Below are positions 201 through 52,463 of a DNA stretch of 64,000 nt, piece after piece. Position 1 is the first letter of the stretch. The number at the start of each line of letters is the position of its first letter. Location of the stretch: contig NZ_JARVCO010000010.1 of assembly GCF_034531395.1 (NCBI RefSeq), forward strand, positions 186,001 through 250,000, in the 5' to 3' direction. Below the pieces are notes generated by a model. The model had not been told where the DNA came from, made no database searches, and worked only from the letters and a program-made list of their open reading frames with translations. The position numbers and the translations under genes were made by a program. The stretch is from Pontiella agarivorans (lineage in GTDB: Bacteria > Verrucomicrobiota > Kiritimatiellia > Kiritimatiellales > Pontiellaceae).

Positions 201-2024
201 ATGCTCAAGCGTCTTTCAGCGGCATTGCTCATCAGCTTTTCATTAATCGGTGCGGTCAGTGCGGCGGACGAGACGCAGCAGCCCCGGCAAACTCAAATGG
301 TGGAATTACAGGAGAATCCTGAATTGCACCGTTCGGTTTATCCTGCTTCGGCCGGGGAAGCTGAGCTGCACGAAATCGAAACGGAACTGGAAGAGCATTT
401 TGCGGCGGAGGCCGAACACGGCATCACCCACATGATGATGCATCTGATCATCCAGCTGGCGGTGATCATCATTTTTGCCAAAATCGGCGGTTTTCTGGCG
501 CAGAATTATCTCAACATGCCGTCCGTGCTGGGGGAACTTGCATCCGGTATGATTATCGGGCCGTATGCGATCGGCGGAATGCTTGATTTGCCGGTTTTAG
601 GACTTCTTTTTGTTGAAAATCATGGTTTTGCGGCCTCGGCGGAGCTTTATGGCATCGCCACACTGGCCTCCGTCATTCTGCTGTTTCTGGCCGGACTTGA
701 AACCGATATCGGGGCTTTCCTGCGCTATTCTGTGGTCGGTTCCATTGTGGGCCTTGGCGGGCTGATTGCAGCATTTGTTGTTGGAGATCTCGTGGCCGTT
801 GTGTGGCCGAATAACGGAATTGACAGTTTTATGCAGCCGGCTGCGCTGTTTCTGGGGGTCATTTCGGTGGCCACTTCAGTGGGAATCACGGCGCGAATTC
901 TGGCGGAAAAACAAAAGATGGCGTCCCCGGAAGGCGTGACGATTCTGGCCGGGGCGGTCTTTGATGATGTCTTCGGTATTATTACGCTTGCGATTGTTAT
1001 GGGCATGGCGAAAGCGGGTTCGGACGGCGGGCATGTGGCGTGGGGAAGTATCGGACTGATTGCGCTGAAAGCCGCCGGTTTTTTTGTGGTGTTCACCGGT
1101 TTGGGGCTGGCCTTCAGTCGCAAAATCACGGCGCTGATTAAGCGCTTCAGATCCAAAGAGATGATTGTAGCCATCTGTTTCGGGTTGGCCCTGCTGCTGG
1201 CGGGGCTGGCGGAAATGGCGGGGCTGGCGATGATCATCGGTGCATACATCATGGGGCTGGCTCTCTCCCGTACGGACCTGGCGAATGAAATCGAGCACCA
1301 TCTTCAAGGCGTATACAATATTCTCGTGCCGATCTTTTTCTGTGTAATGGGGATGATGGTCGATTTTTTCGCCATGAAGCCGGTGCTGTTTTTCGGTTCG
1401 GTTTATTCGCTTTTCGCGGTGTTTTCAAAAGTTTTCGGTTGCGGGATTCCGGCCTTGCTGACCCGCTTTAATTTACGGGGTTCGCTGCGCATCGGCCTGG
1501 GTATGCTGCCGCGCGGGGAAGTTGCACTTATTGTGGCGGGCATCGGCCTGGCCGGCGGGGTGATTGATCAGGGAATTTTCGGTGTGGCCATTATGATGAC
1601 GGTGGTTACGACCATGCTTGCACCGCCGTTGCTGGTGAAATCGTTCGAGGGAGGTTCCGGACTTCGGAAAGAGATGGAGGAGGGGCACGAAGATGTTGAA
1701 GTCATCGAACTCGAATTTCCGTCCCACGATATTGCCGAATTTCTAGTGAACCGCTTTGTCCGTGCGCTGCAGCACGAAGAGTTTTTTGTTCATCATCTGC
1801 ATACCGATGAACCGACCTACCGTGTGCTGAAAGACGATATCGCCTTCACGCTGGTGCAAGGAGTGAATCGAATCACCATCAACGTACCGCGTTCCAATCA
1901 GCATGTGGCCCGCATGATTCTGCTTGAAGAACTGCTTTCGCTGACCGATCTGCTCGAATCCACCAAGCAGATGAAATCGGTTGATGAAATGGGCACGGAC
2001 CTCATGAAGGGCCTGTTTTCTTAA
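201..2024 (+). CDS. Monovalent cation:proton antiporter (CPA2/KefB-like)
   Basis: A 607-residue inner-membrane protein. It begins with a signal-like hydrophobic stretch (residues 1-22, ending SAAD), followed by an acidic 50-residue segment and then about twelve membrane helices (roughly 80-480) typical of the Na_H_Exchanger fold. An LAGLETD-like motif near residue 165 and an FDDVFGIITLAI segment near 255 fit the CPA2 ion-binding core. After the membrane domain come about 100 soluble residues (IAEFLVNRF...SLTDLLEST) that do not look like a TrkA-N domain and may be a regulatory tail. The gene follows an EIIA-like gene by 3 bp, suggesting PTS control of ion transport. The ion specificity cannot be told from sequence. 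A hairpin terminator follows. Confidence 0.85.
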   Translation: MLKRLSAALLISFSLIGAVSAADETQQPRQTQMVELQENPELHRSVYPASAGEAELHEIETELEEHFAAEAEHGITHMMMHLIIQLAVIIIFAKIGGFLAQNYLNMPSVLGELASGMIIGPYAIGGMLDLPVLGLLFVENHGFAASAELYGIATLASVILLFLAGLETDIGAFLRYSVVGSIVGLGGLIAAFVVGDLVAVVWPNNGIDSFMQPAALFLGVISVATSVGITARILAEKQKMASPEGVTILAGAVFDDVFGIITLAIVMGMAKAGSDGGHVAWGSIGLIALKAAGFFVVFTGLGLAFSRKITALIKRFRSKEMIVAICFGLALLLAGLAEMAGLAMIIGAYIMGLALSRTDLANEIEHHLQGVYNILVPIFFCVMGMMVDFFAMKPVLFFGSVYSLFAVFSKVFGCGIPALLTRFNLRGSLRIGLGMLPRGEVALIVAGIGLAGGVIDQGIFGVAIMMTVVTTMLAPPLLVKSFEGGSGLRKEMEEGHEDVEVIELEFPSHDIAEFLVNRFVRALQHEEFFVHHLHTDEPTYRVLKDDIAFTLVQGVNRITINVPRSNQHVARMILLEELLSLTDLLESTKQMKSVDEMGTDLMKGLFS

Positions 2025-42129: not shown

Positions 42130-45100
42130 CTAGGCCTTTTCCACTACGGCCGCACCGAAGGTGAAACCGCCGCCAAAAGCGGTCAGGCCGACCTTGGCAT
42201 CTTTTCCAAGGGTTGGAGCCAGTTCGCATAGGGCAATCGGAATCGTATTCGACGAGGTGTTGCCATATTTCCGGATGTGGTTGAACATTTTTTCCGGCGG
42301 GAATTTGATCGTTTTCCGGATGGCTTCGATGATGCGCTCGTTCGCCTGATGCGGCACGACTTTATCGAGAGCTTCCAGTGGAATGCCGCGTTCCTGGCAG
42401 GCGCTGTCGAGCACATCGATCATTTTGCGCACAGCCAGTTTAAAGACGGTGAGACCTTCCATTTCAATGACTTCGCCGCTGCCCATGTTCGGCACATAAA
42501 GCACTTTCTGATCCACGCCGGTGGCGGAGAGGAACGGGCGGTTGAGTTTCACCTCAATATTGCCGGGGCGTTTTTCGCAGCTTACCAGCGAAGCGGTGGC
42601 GGCATCGCCGAAAAGGGCCATGGTTTTCTGATCATCCATATTGACCATCGGCGAAAGGGTTTCGGCGGTAATGACGATCACCTTTTTATCCGGTGCATTG
42701 GTCAGGAAATCAAAAGCGGATTGCAGGCCATACATGTAGCCCGAGCAGGCGGCATTCACATCGTGCGCCTGCATCAGCACTTCTCCTTTTGCCGGGCTGA
42801 GTGCATGCAGCACCTGACAGGCGAGTGACGGCGTCATGGTTTTTGGGGTGCCGGTGGAGCAAATGATGGCACCGATATCGGAAAGGGTAAGATGTTCCGT
42901 TTCCAGCAGCTGGCGGGTGGCACTCACCGCGAGGCTGAGGACATCTTCGTCGCCGTCGATCCAGTAGCGTTCTTCAATGCCGGTCCGTTTACGGATAGCA
43001 TCGGAATCCCATTCGTGACGGCCCTGCAGCAGTTCTTCGTTTGTGATGTGACGGGAACCGAACACTTTGGTGATATTTGAAATATAAATGGTTTTTTGTT
43101 CGCGGGCTGGATGAACCGGGGCCGCATTCACGGTGGCCGAACCTGTACGTCGCCGTTCCATCACCGGTGTGCCCGGATCTTCTTTGGTGACCGGCTTGAG
43201 CTGGGCCGCTTCATCCGAGGCGATACGCAGCATCGGTGTTCCGACGGTCAGGGTATCGCCTTCTTGAACGAGCACTTCTGAGATTTTACCGGAAACCGGT
43301 GCGGAGATATCCATAGAGGCTTTGTCGGCCTCGACCGAAGCAATCAGGTCGCCTTCTTTGATTTCTTCGCCTGTTGTAACCAGCAGGTCGGCCACGGTGA
43401 TGGTTTCATCGGATGGACTGGAGCCGATGGCTTTTACGGTAATGATGCCGGCTTCATCTTCAATGGGTTTATTCCAGTGAATATCGATTTCGAGCATTTC
43501 ACAGCATTTTTCGAGCGTGCGTTTGAAGGACGGCAACACCTCGATCTGGCAGGCGAAATCATAGGGAATATAGGTATCGGGGCGGGTGACGCGGGCCACC
43601 TGAACATCGGCACCGGCTTTTTCCGCAATTTCGGCGGCGACTTCGGCGCCCATACCCGAGGTTTTATTGTCTTCGTGAACAACGACCAGTTTTCCGGTTT
43701 TTCTGGCGGAAGCGAGAACGGTTTCTTCGTCCCACGGGAAGATCGTGCGCAGGTCAATCACTTCGGCATTGATACCGACTTCTTTTAATGCTTCGGCAGT
43801 GCGTTCGATCACCGGCATGGAGCCGCCCCAGCTCACGAGCGTGATATCCTGACCGACGCGGGTTACACGGGCTTTCCCGATGGGAACATAGTGTTCATCG
43901 ATGTCGACCGACGTTGTGTTCGAGCGGTCGTTAATCAGACTCTTCGGGAAAAGGAAAACGGACGGTCGTCCGGATTCAGCAATGGCATTCAGCAGTCCGG
44001 CGGCATCGGCGGCGGTGGAGGGCATAAAGACATCCACACCGGGTATGTGAGCGCAGATCGATTCCATGGTCTGGGCATGATACGGGCCGAGGCCCGGACG
44101 GTATCCGCCGGAAATGGACATGATCAGAACGGGAGATTCCCATTGGCCGTTGGTGCGCCAGTACATGGCTCCGATTTCGGAAAGAATGTGGTTATAGGCC
44201 ACCGGCATAAAGTCGGCAAACTGCATGAAAGCCACTGGTTTTCCGCCCGCAAGGGCCTGTCCGGTGGAAACGCCGAGAATCGTGTTTTCCGCCAGCGCCG
44301 CATTGTTTACCTGCTGCGGAAAGTTCTGGGAAAGGCCGCGGGTCAGTCCGAAGACATCGCCTTTCGGATCTTCAATGTCCTGCCCGAGCAGGGTGGTTTT
44401 CCGATCCTTGGAAAGTCGGTTTTTCAGCGCTTCGCGCATGGCTTCGAGCATGCTGAGAGTTCGGTTTTCTTCAGTTCCGCGATATTCATTCCGCGGTTCC
44501 GGAAGCGGTTTTTTGGCGGAAAATTCGGCCTTGGGCGCGGTTCCGCCGCGTGCGGTGTGGAAAGCGGCATCCACCTGGGCCTTCACATCGTCTTCAACGG
44601 CTTTGACGGTTGCGGCATCCGCCCCGTTGGCCAGCAGGTAGTCGCGGAGTCCGGCACAGGGATCGGCATTTTCCATGGCGGCCTGAAGTTCGGCCTCTGA
44701 GCGGTAAACGGATTGATCGTCGGCGTTCGTGTGGCTTTCAAGCCGTTCAACGTTCAGAACGACAATCTGCGGGCCGCGGGTTTGCCGTAGATTGGAAACG
44801 ACGCTGCCGAATTTTTCATATGTGGTAATGGCGTCGGCGCCGTCGATCCGCTGAATCGGAAGGCCGAGGAACGAATCAGATTCTCCGTCGGGCAGGGAAT
44901 AGAAGGTGTTGCCTTTGGTCGGAGTGGAGAGGGCAAAGCGGTTGTCTTCAATCAGAAAGAGCACCGGCAGATTGGCCCGGACGGCTTCTGCGACGGCTTC
45001 ATAGAAGTCGCCCTGCTGGGTGGCCCCGTCACCGACGGAAACAAGTACAAAGGGGTTGTCCGCGTCGTTTTTGATGACGGATGCGGCTCCGACCGCCTGC

Positions 45101-45465
45101 AGGACATTGCTGCCGACGAGCGTCGGGGTGCTCATGATATTCAACGCGGGATCGCTGGGAAATGCGGGCATGCGGCGGCCGGCGGCATTGGATTCCGCTT
45201 TCGAGAAGAGACCGTAAAAGACGGTTTCATACGAAACCCCGCGGGCGTAAGCCAGTGCACGATCGCGATAGTGCAGGTGCAGCCAGTCGCTTTCGATCAT
45301 GTGCGGTGCCAGTGCGGCGGAGGCCTCGTGACCGGAGGAGGGGATGTAAAAAAAGACTTCGCCCCGCTGGGCGGCAGCGGACTGAAGTTGGTCCGTATAG
45401 CGGGAGGCCACCATTGGGCGATAGAGTTTGAGCAGTTGTTCGACAGAGGGTGTGTTCTTTTTCAT
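42130..45465 (-). CDS. Four-part fusion: keto-acid dehydrogenase E1 alpha, E1 beta, lipoyl domain, FabH-type synthase
   Basis: 1111 residues with four domains in order. About 1-310: E1 alpha with TPP motif VGDGATQQGDFYEA and IEDNRFALST. About 335-660: E1 beta (ENRTLSMLEAMREAL, LAENTILGVSTGQALAGGKP, VISWGG-like LVSWGGSMPVI). About 675-750: a lipoyl domain with the attachment Lys in VEADKASMD. About 790-1111: a beta-ketoacyl-ACP synthase III with Cys in VNAACSGYMYGL, His in VVPHQANERI and Asn in KYGNTSSNTIPIAL. All active-site residues are present. No E2 acyltransferase domain exists in the protein or nearby. It probably converts branched-chain or other 2-oxo acids into acyl primers for fatty-acid-like chains. 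A one-mismatch palindrome encodes APTLGK. Confidence 0.9.
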   Translation of the reverse strand: MKKNTPSVEQLLKLYRPMVASRYTDQLQSAAAQRGEVFFYIPSSGHEASAALAPHMIESDWLHLHYRDRALAYARGVSYETVFYGLFSKAESNAAGRRMPAFPSDPALNIMSTPTLVGSNVLQAVGAASVIKNDADNPFVLVSVGDGATQQGDFYEAVAEAVRANLPVLFLIEDNRFALSTPTKGNTFYSLPDGESDSFLGLPIQRIDGADAITTYEKFGSVVSNLRQTRGPQIVVLNVERLESHTNADDQSVYRSEAELQAAMENADPCAGLRDYLLANGADAATVKAVEDDVKAQVDAAFHTARGGTAPKAEFSAKKPLPEPRNEYRGTEENRTLSMLEAMREALKNRLSKDRKTTLLGQDIEDPKGDVFGLTRGLSQNFPQQVNNAALAENTILGVSTGQALAGGKPVAFMQFADFMPVAYNHILSEIGAMYWRTNGQWESPVLIMSISGGYRPGLGPYHAQTMESICAHIPGVDVFMPSTAADAAGLLNAIAESGRPSVFLFPKSLINDRSNTTSVDIDEHYVPIGKARVTRVGQDITLVSWGGSMPVIERTAEALKEVGINAEVIDLRTIFPWDEETVLASARKTGKLVVVHEDNKTSGMGAEVAAEIAEKAGADVQVARVTRPDTYIPYDFACQIEVLPSFKRTLEKCCEMLEIDIHWNKPIEDEAGIITVKAIGSSPSDETITVADLLVTTGEEIKEGDLIASVEADKASMDISAPVSGKISEVLVQEGDTLTVGTPMLRIASDEAAQLKPVTKEDPGTPVMERRRTGSATVNAAPVHPAREQKTIYISNITKVFGSRHITNEELLQGRHEWDSDAIRKRTGIEERYWIDGDEDVLSLAVSATRQLLETEHLTLSDIGAIICSTGTPKTMTPSLACQVLHALSPAKGEVLMQAHDVNAACSGYMYGLQSAFDFLTNAPDKKVIVITAETLSPMVNMDDQKTMALFGDAATASLVSCEKRPGNIEVKLNRPFLSATGVDQKVLYVPNMGSGEVIEMEGLTVFKLAVRKMIDVLDSACQERGIPLEALDKVVPHQANERIIEAIRKTIKFPPEKMFNHIRKYGNTSSNTIPIALCELAPTLGKDAKVGLTAFGGGFTFGAAVVEKA

Positions 45466-45596: not shown

Positions 45597-47876
45597 ATGA
45601 TGAAAAAGAGAAATGTAGATCTGGTTTGCGACATTGCGGAGTTGATATCGCTGGCTGAAGGGGGGCGTGACCGCCGGGAGCTGTTGCAGCAGGTGGTGAC
45701 GTCTGTGGCGTCGCATATGCAGGCGGACGTCTGTTCGATCTATATTTATGACGAAGAGGACAAGGAGCTCACATTGCGGGCGACCCAGGGACTCGACGAG
45801 CGGGCCATCGGCGCGGTGAAGTTGAAGCTGGGTGAGGGGATTACGGGCCGGGCGGTTCGGGAACTTCGTCCGATTTGTGTCGGAACCGCTTCCCGGAGTG
45901 ATTCCTACAAATTTTTCCCCGGTATACACGAAGAGGACTATGAGGCCTTTCTGGCGGTTCCGATTCTGCGCGGTTTGCGCCGTATCGGTGCGTTGGTGGT
46001 GCAGGCGGATGAGGCCAACTATTTCACACCGAATGATGTAAAGGCCCTCCGGGCGATTGCCGCTCAGTTGGCAACGATGATTGAAAACGTGCAGTTGTTG
46101 AGTGAAGCGCGCTTGGAAGCTGCTGCATCGGAAACGGCTGCGCCGAAAAAGGTGATTAGTGAATCGTTGATTAAAGGGCGGTCGGCGAGCACAGGAACGG
46201 CGCGCGGGAAAGCCTTTACACTGGATTCGGCAAATAGTGAATCGTGTGTTCTTCCTGATCCCGATGCAAAACCGCATTCACTGGAGGATTTTGAGCGGGC
46301 GGTTGAAAAAACGGCGGAACAGATCGATCGGCTTCAGCGTCAGACCAGTGAGGAATTGGCCGATGTGGCTGTGCTCATTTTCAGCGCCCATCTGCTCATT
46401 CTGGAAGATGATCAGTTTTCCGGACGGATTAAGGGTTTGATTGAAGAGGGCTGTGAGGCTGTTAAGGCCATTGCCACTGTGGTCGATGAATATGTGGAAG
46501 TTTTTTCAAAGAGCAAAATGCCGCTTATCCGCGAAAAAGTGCTCGATGTTAAGGATCTGGGCAATCGTCTTACGCGAAATCTTCTGAATGAAGAAGCTGA
46601 TACGGCAGATTATCAGGGACAGATCATCATTGCACATGAGCTGCTGCCGTCGGATATCCTGAAACTTTCGGCCGAAAATGTTGAAGGATTCATTGTCAGC
46701 AGCGGGGTGACCTCGCACAACGCCATTATTTCGCGGTCGCTGGGTATTCCGATGGTGGCTATCAGCCGGGAGCAGGCGGATGCTATTCCGGATGGCGAAG
46801 AGATGCTGATGGATGCGGAGCAGGGCATTATTTATCTGCATCCGGGTCCGGAGGTTTATGATAAATACCGCGATCTTGATCAGGCCTGGCGGGTGCTGCA
46901 CGACGCGGCGGATATGAAGGAGGAAACGCGGACCCGATGTGGTCAGCGGATCAGTATTTTTGCCAACATTAATTTGTTGAGCGACCTCAAGCCTGCCCGT
47001 GAATTCAAGGCTGAGGGGGTAGGGCTTTATCGATCCGAATTCCCGTTCATTGTCCGGAATGACTTTCCTACAGAAGAAGAGCAATATGTGATTTATAAAA
47101 AGCTCGTTGATCAGATGGAGGGTCGGATGGTTACGTTCCGGACTCTGGATATCGGCGGCGATAAAATGCTCTCCTACTATTCAAACGTCAATGAAGCCAA
47201 TCCGTTTCTGGGTATGCGGGCGATCCGTTTCTCGCTAGAGAATAAAGACATATTTTCTCAGCAGCTTCGGGCTTTTCTGCGGGCCGGCGCCGATGCCGAC
47301 ACGCGCATTATGTTTCCGCTGGTCTCTTCTGTGGACGACTTTATTGCCGCACGTGATATTGCCTATGAGTGTATGAGCAGTCTCGATGCCGAGGGTATTG
47401 CTTTTAATCCGGACACGAAGTTTGGTGTCATGATGGAGCTGCCTTCTGCCGTCGAGGTGGTGGATGAACTCGCGCAGGAAGCGGATTTTCTTTCGATTGG
47501 TTCAAACGACCTGATTCAGTATATGCTGGCGGTTGACCGGACCAACGAGATGGTTTCCAGCCTGTATCTCGCTCACCATCCGGCCATTCTGCGCGCGATC
47601 AACCGCATTGTGAGGGCCGGATTGAAGTATGAAAAAGATGTTTCCATTTGCGGCGACCTGTCGGCGGATCCGCGTATGCTGCCTTTCCTGTTGGGTGTCG
47701 GACTGAAAAAGTTCAGCATCGACAGTGTGAATGCGCCGACGCTCCAGCGTCTGGTGAATGAGCTCAATATGGAAGAAGCTGAAAAAATTGCCCGCACGAT
47801 GCTGGCTTTGGGGCGGATCAGCGAGGTTGAGGCCTTTTTGCTTGAGCGCAATCTTGCGCCCGAATGCGAGGCCTGA
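45597..47876 (+). CDS. ptsP: GAF-containing PEP-protein phosphotransferase (PtsP, EI-Ntr type)
   Basis: 759 residues. A GAF domain (about 1-165: QADVCSIYIYDEEDKELTL) precedes a complete PTS enzyme I: HPr-interaction helices, the phosphohistidine swivel VSSGVTSHNAIISRSLGIP (His near 375), and the PEP-binding barrel with LYRSEFPF, RTLDIGGDK, FGVMMELPSAV and the Cys motif CGDLSADP. EI-Ntr signals through HPr-like and EIIA proteins to ion transport and nitrogen metabolism rather than moving sugars. The EIIA-antiporter pair at the window's start and the amt-PII cassette just downstream fit this, though linkage is only inferred. Confidence 0.9.
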   Translation: MMKKRNVDLVCDIAELISLAEGGRDRRELLQQVVTSVASHMQADVCSIYIYDEEDKELTLRATQGLDERAIGAVKLKLGEGITGRAVRELRPICVGTASRSDSYKFFPGIHEEDYEAFLAVPILRGLRRIGALVVQADEANYFTPNDVKALRAIAAQLATMIENVQLLSEARLEAAASETAAPKKVISESLIKGRSASTGTARGKAFTLDSANSESCVLPDPDAKPHSLEDFERAVEKTAEQIDRLQRQTSEELADVAVLIFSAHLLILEDDQFSGRIKGLIEEGCEAVKAIATVVDEYVEVFSKSKMPLIREKVLDVKDLGNRLTRNLLNEEADTADYQGQIIIAHELLPSDILKLSAENVEGFIVSSGVTSHNAIISRSLGIPMVAISREQADAIPDGEEMLMDAEQGIIYLHPGPEVYDKYRDLDQAWRVLHDAADMKEETRTRCGQRISIFANINLLSDLKPAREFKAEGVGLYRSEFPFIVRNDFPTEEEQYVIYKKLVDQMEGRMVTFRTLDIGGDKMLSYYSNVNEANPFLGMRAIRFSLENKDIFSQQLRAFLRAGADADTRIMFPLVSSVDDFIAARDIAYECMSSLDAEGIAFNPDTKFGVMMELPSAVEVVDELAQEADFLSIGSNDLIQYMLAVDRTNEMVSSLYLAHHPAILRAINRIVRAGLKYEKDVSICGDLSADPRMLPFLLGVGLKKFSIDSVNAPTLQRLVNELNMEEAEKIARTMLALGRISEVEAFLLERNLAPECEA

Positions 47877-50086: not shown

Positions 50087-52354
50087 TTATTCAGGTACGA
50101 CGCGATAGAATCCTGTGGATGCCGCCGTTTCTGAGTCCTCAACCTGAGCGTTACTGCCATCGCCCCAGATCGACTCGAGGTTGAACCACGAACCGTCTTT
50201 CAGATTGGCGGATTTCTGCAGCTGGTAAGATGTATTACTCGTGGTCTGAACGCTGAAGGAATAGGTGCCGGATCCGGAATCGTAGGCTGGCGGAATGCTG
50301 ATCGGTGGATAAACCACCGGTTCGTCGGGCGGACTGAGGGTGAAGTTGACCTCTTCAACCGTTGAGCCGGCTGTGACCGTTACGGCCGCCGCCACGGACT
50401 GGGTGTCTGCATTCGGGAACCACTGCGGCGGGATGGACGAGAACGAACCGGGGTTCCAGCGCAGGGTGTAGACGCCGGGCGGAATGCTCGGTGCGGTATA
50501 GTTGTCGGTCCAGCTCCAGATGTTTTCGGTGAAGAGCAGCGTGCCGGACGAGGCATCGTAAAACTCCAGCTCACCGCTGGCACCATGTCCCATCATGTCG
50601 CCGCCGAACTGCGCCACATGCCCTTTGATCATGCCGGTGTCCGGATTGTTCACGACCTGCAGCAGGCAGCCGTCGGATAAGGTTACTCCTCCAACGGTTG
50701 CGCTGCTTGAAAACATATAGGTTCCGGGGATAGCATCAGCTCCGATAGTGAAGTCATACGTATGGCTGCTGTTATCGCCGTTCAAATAGCTGTTGTGGGT
50801 TGCCACGCCGAGGTCGCCGATGCTGTAGGAATAGCCCGACATCGGGCCGGACGCGAGAAAGTAGAGCTGGTTGGTTTCCGTCGGATCGTTGCTCATCGGC
50901 GAGAATGAACAGGAGTGGGAGACCACGGCGGGATCGGCGGGCAGGGCGACCTGTACCGCGAAGGGATATTCACTGCCGTCCGGCAGGGCGGCCCGCACGG
51001 TGGTGCTGCCGTTAGCATGGGGCAGAAAATAGAGGCTGCCCCAGGGCGACGTTTCCTGAAACACCTCGATCAGCATCGGATTATCCGAGCTCCAGACCGG
51101 CCGCGGCACTTCATAGCTGATGTCGCCTCCGAGCGTGTCCGTAATAGTGGTCTGCATCGATGCCGGTGCACCCGAGGTAAAGGTATAACCGTCGAGTGAG
51201 ACATCGCTGAAGTCGACTGCCGTGAGGGTGTCGACCGCCCGGATGTCGATGCTGAATTCGGCGGTTCGGTCGGTACTGGCGCCGTCCTGTCCGAGCACCG
51301 TAAAGGTGTGGACGCCCGGAGTGAGCCCGGTTGTGTCGAACGTCAGCAGCGAACCGCCGTCGGCCATCACCGGGTTGGGCGAAAGGACGGATCGTGCGGC
51401 TTGATTGGTTACGCTCAGCTGAATACCGGCGGCGGTCGAAAAACCGTTGCGGAAGGGGGTATGAATCCCGACCTGTACGGACTGTCCGGCCGTGGCGATG
51501 GTGCTGGCGGGCGAAACGTCCACCGTATAGTAGGGGCTGGTGACGGACAGTGTGCGCTTTTCGCAGGTACGCGTCCCGGCGGAATCGATCATGACGTTGC
51601 CCCCGGTGCATGCGGTGCCGATCAGGACGGTCACCTGATCCGGGGTCCACGATTGCACGGTCACCCCGTTGGTGGATCCGCCGATCAGGACTTCTCCGGC
51701 GGCGGATCCGAAACCGTGGCCGGTAATCGTCAGCGTTCCGCCGTGGGCGAGAGCGGCCGGCGTGATGCTGCCGAGCTGAGGTATCGGGCCGGGGGTCAGG
51801 GAGGATGAACTCAGACTGATGTTGTCCGCGCTGCTCCACGTATCATCAAGCAGGTCGATGGCCAGCTCGACGAGCCGGGCGGAGTCGGCCGGAAACGTAT
51901 AGGATGTGCTGATTGTGGCCATCCCGCCTTCGGCAATGGCCGAATTGTCCGGATTGAGCGCAAGGGCCCGCTGCCGGGCTCCGCTGCTGTCGATGTATTC
52001 CAGATAGACCGCAACGGAGTTGCCGGGATTCTGAAACCAGTCGCTCCCCAGGTCGATCGACAGATCCACCGTCTGGCTTGCGATGCCGTCGACATTGAGG
52101 GGCTGGCTGATGACGGTTCCTCGATAGCCGAATACGGATGCGGGACTCAGACTGACGGTTCCGTCGGGATGCTCATAAGGTATCCAGGAGCCGAGTGCAT
52201 CTTCGACGTTCCAGTTTTCCATTACGTTGTTGAAGTCGCCGTTATTGAGGAGTTCTGCTGTATGAGCGATCGTGGTCATAGCGACTGCTGCGGCGATAAC
52301 CGCAGTGTTGATGTATTGCTTCCGGAGTGTCGATTGAGCATCGTGAGCTTTCAT
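50087..52354 (-). CDS. Large exported protein with IPT/TIG domain
   Basis: About 755 residues from the ATG at 52354. A signal-type segment (YINTAVIAAAVAMTTIAHTAE) leads to a beta-sandwich similar to carbohydrate-binding modules (NNGDFNNVMENWNVEDALGS), then an IPT/TIG domain (GSITPAALAHGGTLTITGHG, GSAAGEVLIGG), further immunoglobulin-like parts, and a tail (SYQLQKSANLKDGSWFNLES, TGFYRVV) common in secreted verrucomicrobial proteins. Probably cell-surface or secreted; the ligand is unknown. No palindrome copy occurs in it, unlike most neighbours, which may point to a more recent origin. Confidence 0.65.
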   Translation of the reverse strand: MKAHDAQSTLRKQYINTAVIAAAVAMTTIAHTAELLNNGDFNNVMENWNVEDALGSWIPYEHPDGTVSLSPASVFGYRGTVISQPLNVDGIASQTVDLSIDLGSDWFQNPGNSVAVYLEYIDSSGARQRALALNPDNSAIAEGGMATISTSYTFPADSARLVELAIDLLDDTWSSADNISLSSSSLTPGPIPQLGSITPAALAHGGTLTITGHGFGSAAGEVLIGGSTNGVTVQSWTPDQVTVLIGTACTGGNVMIDSAGTRTCEKRTLSVTSPYYTVDVSPASTIATAGQSVQVGIHTPFRNGFSTAAGIQLSVTNQAARSVLSPNPVMADGGSLLTFDTTGLTPGVHTFTVLGQDGASTDRTAEFSIDIRAVDTLTAVDFSDVSLDGYTFTSGAPASMQTTITDTLGGDISYEVPRPVWSSDNPMLIEVFQETSPWGSLYFLPHANGSTTVRAALPDGSEYPFAVQVALPADPAVVSHSCSFSPMSNDPTETNQLYFLASGPMSGYSYSIGDLGVATHNSYLNGDNSSHTYDFTIGADAIPGTYMFSSSATVGGVTLSDGCLLQVVNNPDTGMIKGHVAQFGGDMMGHGASGELEFYDASSGTLLFTENIWSWTDNYTAPSIPPGVYTLRWNPGSFSSIPPQWFPNADTQSVAAAVTVTAGSTVEEVNFTLSPPDEPVVYPPISIPPAYDSGSGTYSFSVQTTSNTSYQLQKSANLKDGSWFNLESIWGDGSNAQVEDSETAASTGFYRVVPE

Positions 52355-52463
52355 GACTTCCACCCTTCCTTGTTAGTTGCATTGAGCTCGAACAAGTATG
52401 ACCCCACATCTTATCTTTGCCTGCAGGCACTATTCTAGAAGGGTGGTGTATGGGGTCAATCAA

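Follow-up and report, generated by a model that had tools for sequence, protein, structure and literature searches.

The question raised by this locus is whether a single protein that joins a 2-oxoacid dehydrogenase E1, a lipoyl domain, and a beta-ketoacyl-ACP synthase III (KASIII) can start a fatty acid by passing an acyl group from its own lipoyl arm to the KASIII cysteine. In the textbook scheme, the start of branched fatty acids requires a dehydrogenase complex and FabH, with free acyl-CoA between the two. The gene lies in the window, the 64,000-nucleotide stretch of DNA from the marine bacterium Pontiella agarivorans that was analyzed.

Architecture, distribution and relatives of the fusion

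The gene is a single uninterrupted open reading frame with an ATG start that encodes 1111 residues (Table 1). All Pfam matches on the protein exceed their cut-offs, and NCBIfam identifies residues 792-1109 as beta-ketoacyl-ACP synthase 3 (NF006829), also above cut-off; the score of this domain against the fabH model TIGR00747 is 224.9, which is below the cut-off of 292.1. A Pfam search of the whole protein found no match to the E2 catalytic domain (2-oxoacid_dh) or to the E3_binding domain (PF02817). The preliminary description had listed E1 alpha, E1 beta, a lipoyl lysine, and a KASIII with its Cys-His-Asn set in 1111 residues, without an E2 catalytic domain; the architecture is confirmed by Pfam, NCBIfam, and residue conservation, and the absence of the E2 domain by Pfam. 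AlphaFold2 gave no confident model, with a pLDDT of 36.6 for the full protein (5 sequences) and 35.5 for the KASIII domain (4 sequences), which is probably due to the shallow alignment.

Table 1. Positions of the fusion gene, its domains and the related single-chain loci. Positions are those of the window unless a locus is named.
Feature	Residues	Position	Strand	Basis or remarks
Whole gene, E1-alpha/E1-beta/lipoyl/KASIII	1-1111	42130..45465	-	Pfam, NCBIfam, and recurrence
E1-alpha (E1_dh, PF00676)	16-308	44542..45420	-	TPP motif GDG145-147...N175; loop SHTNADDQSVYR (His245)
E1-beta pyrimidine-binding (Transket_pyr, PF02779)	337-511	43933..44457	-	Glu393, His463
Transketolase_C (PF02780)	530-636	43558..43878	-	Pfam
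Lipoyl domain (Biotin_lipoyl, PF00364)	690-748	43222..43398	-	Lys715 (VEADKASMD) at 43321-43323
Variable linker, lipoyl to KASIII	749-790	43096..43221	-	No E3-binding domain; selection relaxed at 761-790
KASIII domain	791-1111	42133..43095	-	Cys907/His1039/Asn1069 correspond to E. coli FabH C112/H244/N274
KASIII Pfam halves	ACP_syn_III 902-969; ACP_syn_III_C 1023-1109		-	Pfam
KASIII residues relative to E. coli FabH	Trp819/Ala823/Gln946; Thr878; Arg1044		-	Replace T28/W32/R151; replaces F87; R249 kept
Single-chain E1-lipoyl-E2 loci in other families		L059:1690-4782, L065:1496-4531, L066:1251-4280, L067:1334-4444, L069:1044-4109

The catalytic residues of the fusion are highly conserved. E1-beta Glu393 and His463, the E1-alpha loop His245...Asp-Asp...Tyr-Arg, and the lipoyl Lys715 are kept in 47 of 47 fusions, as is the TPP motif apart from Asp146, which is present in 45 of the 47 and is Glu in the other 2. 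The Cys-His-Asn set of KASIII is observed in all 49 distinct fused domains. Conservation on this scale, in 47-49 fusions, predicts from sequence that all three activities (E1, lipoyl, and KASIII) should be live.

The domain-architecture survey that the preliminary description had proposed was carried out, and the fusion recurs in the host order, in a sample of the phylum, and in a few Gammaproteobacteria. The fusion is present in 41 of the 43 genomes of the order, full-length in 32 and broken at contig ends in 9; completeness is 72% and 84% for the two genomes that lack it. About 36 of the 388 genomes in the phylum sample carry it (34 full-length and 2 split over contigs), and among 346 genomes of the class a match at E 1e-100 or better occurs in 60. 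A fusion whose contig stops where KASIII begins was found in a 'Thiotrichales' metagenome assembly, and in the class of Gammaproteobacteria-like genomes reached from this assembly two more carry it, one with a fusion of 1116 residues and an identical domain set (G531) and one with 886 residues from a contig end (G453). Comparison of the window gene with a 92% identical relative (L006) gave changes at codon positions 1/2/3 of 34/11/121 in E1-alpha, 14/4/106 in E1-beta, 5/1/31 in the lipoyl domain, and 6/9/90 in KASIII. Third-position changes prevail in all four domains, KASIII is among the most conserved, and selection is relaxed solely in residues 761-790 of the linker, so that every domain is, as judged by codon position, under purifying selection. 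The recurrence across genomes together with the third-position excess identifies one protein under selection and not an artifact. A frameshift or assembly error that merged separate genes, which the preliminary description had named as a possible refutation, is ruled out by the 32 full-length copies in the order and by further copies in the phylum and in Gammaproteobacteria, is contradicted by purifying selection across the junctions, and has nothing found in its favor.

Other families of the phylum encode single-chain proteins of about 1010-1080 residues (L059-L069) that consist of E1-alpha, E1-beta, lipoyl, and E2 catalytic domains; those at the five loci of Table 1 measure about 1010-1036 residues and lack a Pfam E3-binding domain. 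Matches of this type occur in about 27 sampled phylum genomes, and the KAS fusion occurs in none of them. The E1 tree splits the two architectures with full support and places the gammaproteobacterial fusions inside the KAS-fusion side. On the evidence of this tree and of the layout shared with the E1-lipoyl-E2 chains, KASIII is assigned by sequence comparison to the place that the E2 catalytic domain takes in those chains. The fused KASIII domains form one group that is separate from standalone FabH, with support of 100/99. One genome, G735, encodes an E1-lipoyl protein that lacks KASIII and is placed within the KAS-fusion side of the E1 tree, which suggests that its KASIII was lost later. 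At this locus (L082:9626-14228) the E1-lipoyl gene is followed by genes for a SET-domain protein, a WelO5-like halogenase/oxygenase, and a homoserine acetyltransferase-like alpha/beta hydrolase, and the locus is possibly a small biosynthetic cluster with a lipoyl acyl donor.

Host genes, host lipids and the E1 substrate

The gene inventory of the host shows that the fusion is the sole E1-alpha-type gene in the genome. A search for a separate E2, which had been named as a check, found only AceF, which directly follows AceE and best matches acetyltransferase models. Genes for E3 and LipA are present, with E3 located apart from the fusion. Ferredoxin-dependent 2-oxoacid oxidoreductases of the POR/KOR/IOR type are also encoded, and these could be the main alternative source of isobutyryl-CoA. 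A third KASIII-like match in the host (L003:1438-2592, 384 residues, contig C12) looks by eye like a type III polyketide synthase.

The neighbors of the fusion in the window are a Tsx-like channel, a xanthine/uracil permease, and a PtsP-like protein. There are no conserved neighbors around the fusion in relatives L070-L084, and therefore operon context gives no functional clue; such an absence is as for a stand-alone gene of core metabolism. A scan for promoters and terminators gave a signal near chance level. The PtsP-like gene (GAF and PEP-utilizing enzyme domains, 45597-47876) is divergent from the fusion, and ammonium transporter and PII-like genes come after it. Further along the window, positions 50087-52363 encode a secreted-looking protein of 758 residues with no Pfam match at 1e-5.

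The fatty acids published for the host strain, P. agarivorans NLcol2, are C18:0, i-C12:0, i-C18:0, and i-C14:0, with lesser C16:0, i-C16:0, C20:0, and i-C20:0 (PMC10880615). The cells were grown on galactose with N2, and therefore the isobutyryl primer must stem from the organism's own valine pathway. The same even-iso pattern is published for P. desulfatans, P. sulfatireligans, and Tichowtungia aerotolerans (PMC7356697, PMC10880615), which by inference correspond to the fusion-bearing genomes G002, G028, and G029. Odd iso and anteiso acids, which would be expected from a broad branched-chain 2-oxoacid dehydrogenase (BCKDH), are not among the acids of these species in the accessible portions of these reports. 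Iso-even fatty acids are valine derivatives built on an isobutyryl primer (PMC5857589), and an even-numbered iso series marks the use of isobutyryl, derived from 2-oxoisovalerate, as primer. As a counterpoint, Kiritimatiella glycovorans, in which the presence of the fusion is undetermined, makes abundant i-C14:0 too. The fatty acid profile of the host had been proposed as a check, and all of its published branched acids, as far as the source was available, are even-numbered iso and point to isobutyryl. The earlier suggestion that the protein primes branched-chain acids is supported by these acids and by a host genome in which the fusion is the only alpha/beta E1 and AceF the only E2, and which has its own FabH of the acetyl type.

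The substrate of E1 remains an inference, and there are no experimental data on its 2-oxo acid preference. An unlikely reading that keeps some standing is that E1 uses pyruvate or another 2-oxo acid, that KASIII gives acetoacetyl-ACP or a specialized lipid, and that iso-even acids are made via the ferredoxin-dependent oxidoreductases and FabH. The best NCBIfam E1 models for the fusion are PDH-type, although their scores are far under cut-off, and the genes for the oxidoreductases are at hand. However, acetyl-CoA is already handled by FabH (of the F87/W32/R151 type) and PDH activity is supplied by AceEF, Thr replaces Phe87 in the pocket of the fused KASIII, and even-iso acids are made by every cultured species matched, by inference, to a fusion-bearing genome.

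The donor site of the fused KASIII

In E. coli FabH the CoA adenine stacks between Trp32 and Arg151 and is hydrogen bonded to Thr28 (PMC4606726). Residue numbers here follow the E. coli FabH sequence and were verified against PDB 1hn9. All 21 standalone FabHs examined from the lineages of the fusions, among them the host's own FabH from the plsX-fabH-fabD-fabG-fabF cluster, have an intact Thr28/Trp32/Arg151 clamp, as against 0 of the 49 fused domains. The fused domains lack 43 of the 125 residues that are conserved in standalone FabH (about one third), and with this background the chance probability of losing all three clamp residues is ~0.04. Additionally, 40 of the 49 feature a Trp at position 28, one helical turn from position 32, which could partly replace Trp32. 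Given this chance probability and the position-28 Trp, the clamp loss argues for a non-CoA donor without proving one. ACP-docking Arg249 is retained in 49/49, Asn247 in 48/49, Gly209 is kept, and Arg36 is mostly kept; Asn247, Gly209, and Arg249 are retained, as malonyl-ACP would require. Phe87, which lines the acyl pocket of E. coli FabH, is replaced by Thr in 48/49.

These residues bear on a CoA-dependent route, in which AceF in trans or another acyltransferase would move the lipoyl-bound acyl group to CoA and the fused KASIII would use the nearby acyl-CoA, so that the fusion raises the local concentration only. AceF is encoded in the host, and the position-28 Trp might bind adenine. The pantetheine channel (N247, G209, and mostly R36) is also kept, but it is required for malonyl-ACP in any case. 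This route is considered improbable since T28, W32, and R151 are lost from every fused domain yet are invariant in the lineages' own FabH, an E2 catalytic domain is neither fused nor encoded beside the gene, and AceF adjoins AceE and best fits acetyltransferase models.

Some KASIII-like enzymes use no CoA donors, and the clamp loss alone is compatible with any non-CoA donor. The fused KASIII could take acyl-ACP instead of acyl-lipoyl, which is a counterpoint to direct transfer from the lipoyl arm. The version in which KASIII is loaded from acyl-ACP or another carrier, with a lipoyl domain that is a mere vestige or works for some other system, is very doubtful, as Lys715 is invariant, the lipoyl domain is under purifying selection, LipA is encoded in the host, and an E1 lacking an acceptor arm would be pointless. 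The proposal of the preliminary description that the lipoyl arm primes the KASIII cysteine is strengthened by a lost clamp with catalytic and docking residues kept, and its two central points, direct transfer and the bypass of CoA, stay inferences.

Proposed route and known systems

The reading that the evidence favors on balance, with confidence that stops well short of certainty, is that the fusion is self-contained and starts iso-even fatty acids independently of CoA, with a lipoyl thioester passed to the KASIII cysteine within one chain. There is no enzyme assay for the substrate, the lipoyl-to-Cys transfer, the CoA independence, or the condensation reaction, and all four are inferred. The E1 part would decarboxylate 2-oxoisovalerate and reductively acylate its own lipoyl-Lys715. 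The S-isobutyryl-dihydrolipoyl arm would then swing to the fused KASIII, where thioester exchange would place isobutyryl on Cys907, and condensation with malonyl-ACP would form 4-methyl-3-oxopentanoyl-ACP. Type II synthesis would elongate this product to i-C12, i-C14, i-C16, and i-C18, and the cell's E3 would reoxidize the dihydrolipoyl group in trans. The route would bypass both free acyl-CoA and the acyl transfer by E2, and straight chains would be begun by the separate FabH from acetyl-CoA. The predicted net reaction is 2-oxoisovalerate + malonyl-ACP + NAD+ -> 4-methyl-3-oxopentanoyl-ACP + 2 CO2 + NADH.

If this is true, the dehydrogenase, acyl-CoA, and FabH steps are merged in one chain, CoA is removed from the route, and a condensing enzyme receives its acyl group from the lipoyl arm. 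The iso-even acids so made would be the branched lipids in the membranes of Pontiella and related bacteria. The fusion would also account for the unusual even-only iso profile of cultured Pontiella and Tichowtungia and provide a gene marker for it, and those who engineer starters for branched lipids would have in it a module that is ready to use. A search of the open literature found no description of a lipoyl-KASIII enzyme or of a CoA-free start of this kind, which agrees, within that literature, with the preliminary description, whose author knew of no such enzyme. All the parts come from known families; their combination, and with it the implied CoA-free start, did not turn up in the open literature searched.

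In the biosynthesis of naphthyridinomycin, the PDH-like loading enzymes NapB and NapD use an E1-like enzyme and a lipoyl arm to load a carrier protein, and not CoA, with a C2 unit. That system differs from the fusion in that it belongs to secondary metabolism, transfers a hydroxyacyl unit, has an ACP as acceptor, and features no KASIII fusion. Like the BCKDH complex (E1 alpha/beta, E2, and E3), the fusion has a TPP-dependent E1 with all catalytic residues, a lipoyl lysine, and a need for E3; unlike it, the fusion is a single chain without an E2 acyltransferase or E3-binding domain, and the acyl group is presumably not released to CoA. The fused KASIII is of the same family as FabH, which starts fatty acid synthesis, and shares its Cys-His-Asn set and Arg249 ACP docking. 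It differs from FabH in its place behind E1 and a lipoyl domain, in the loss of the clamp from all 49 domains, in the Phe87 to Thr replacement, and in forming its own group in the tree. The single-chain E1-lipoyl-E2 proteins (L059-L069) have the same E1-lipoyl layout on one polypeptide, whereas they form a separate group in the E1 tree and terminate in an E2 catalytic domain, and are therefore expected to make acyl-CoA.
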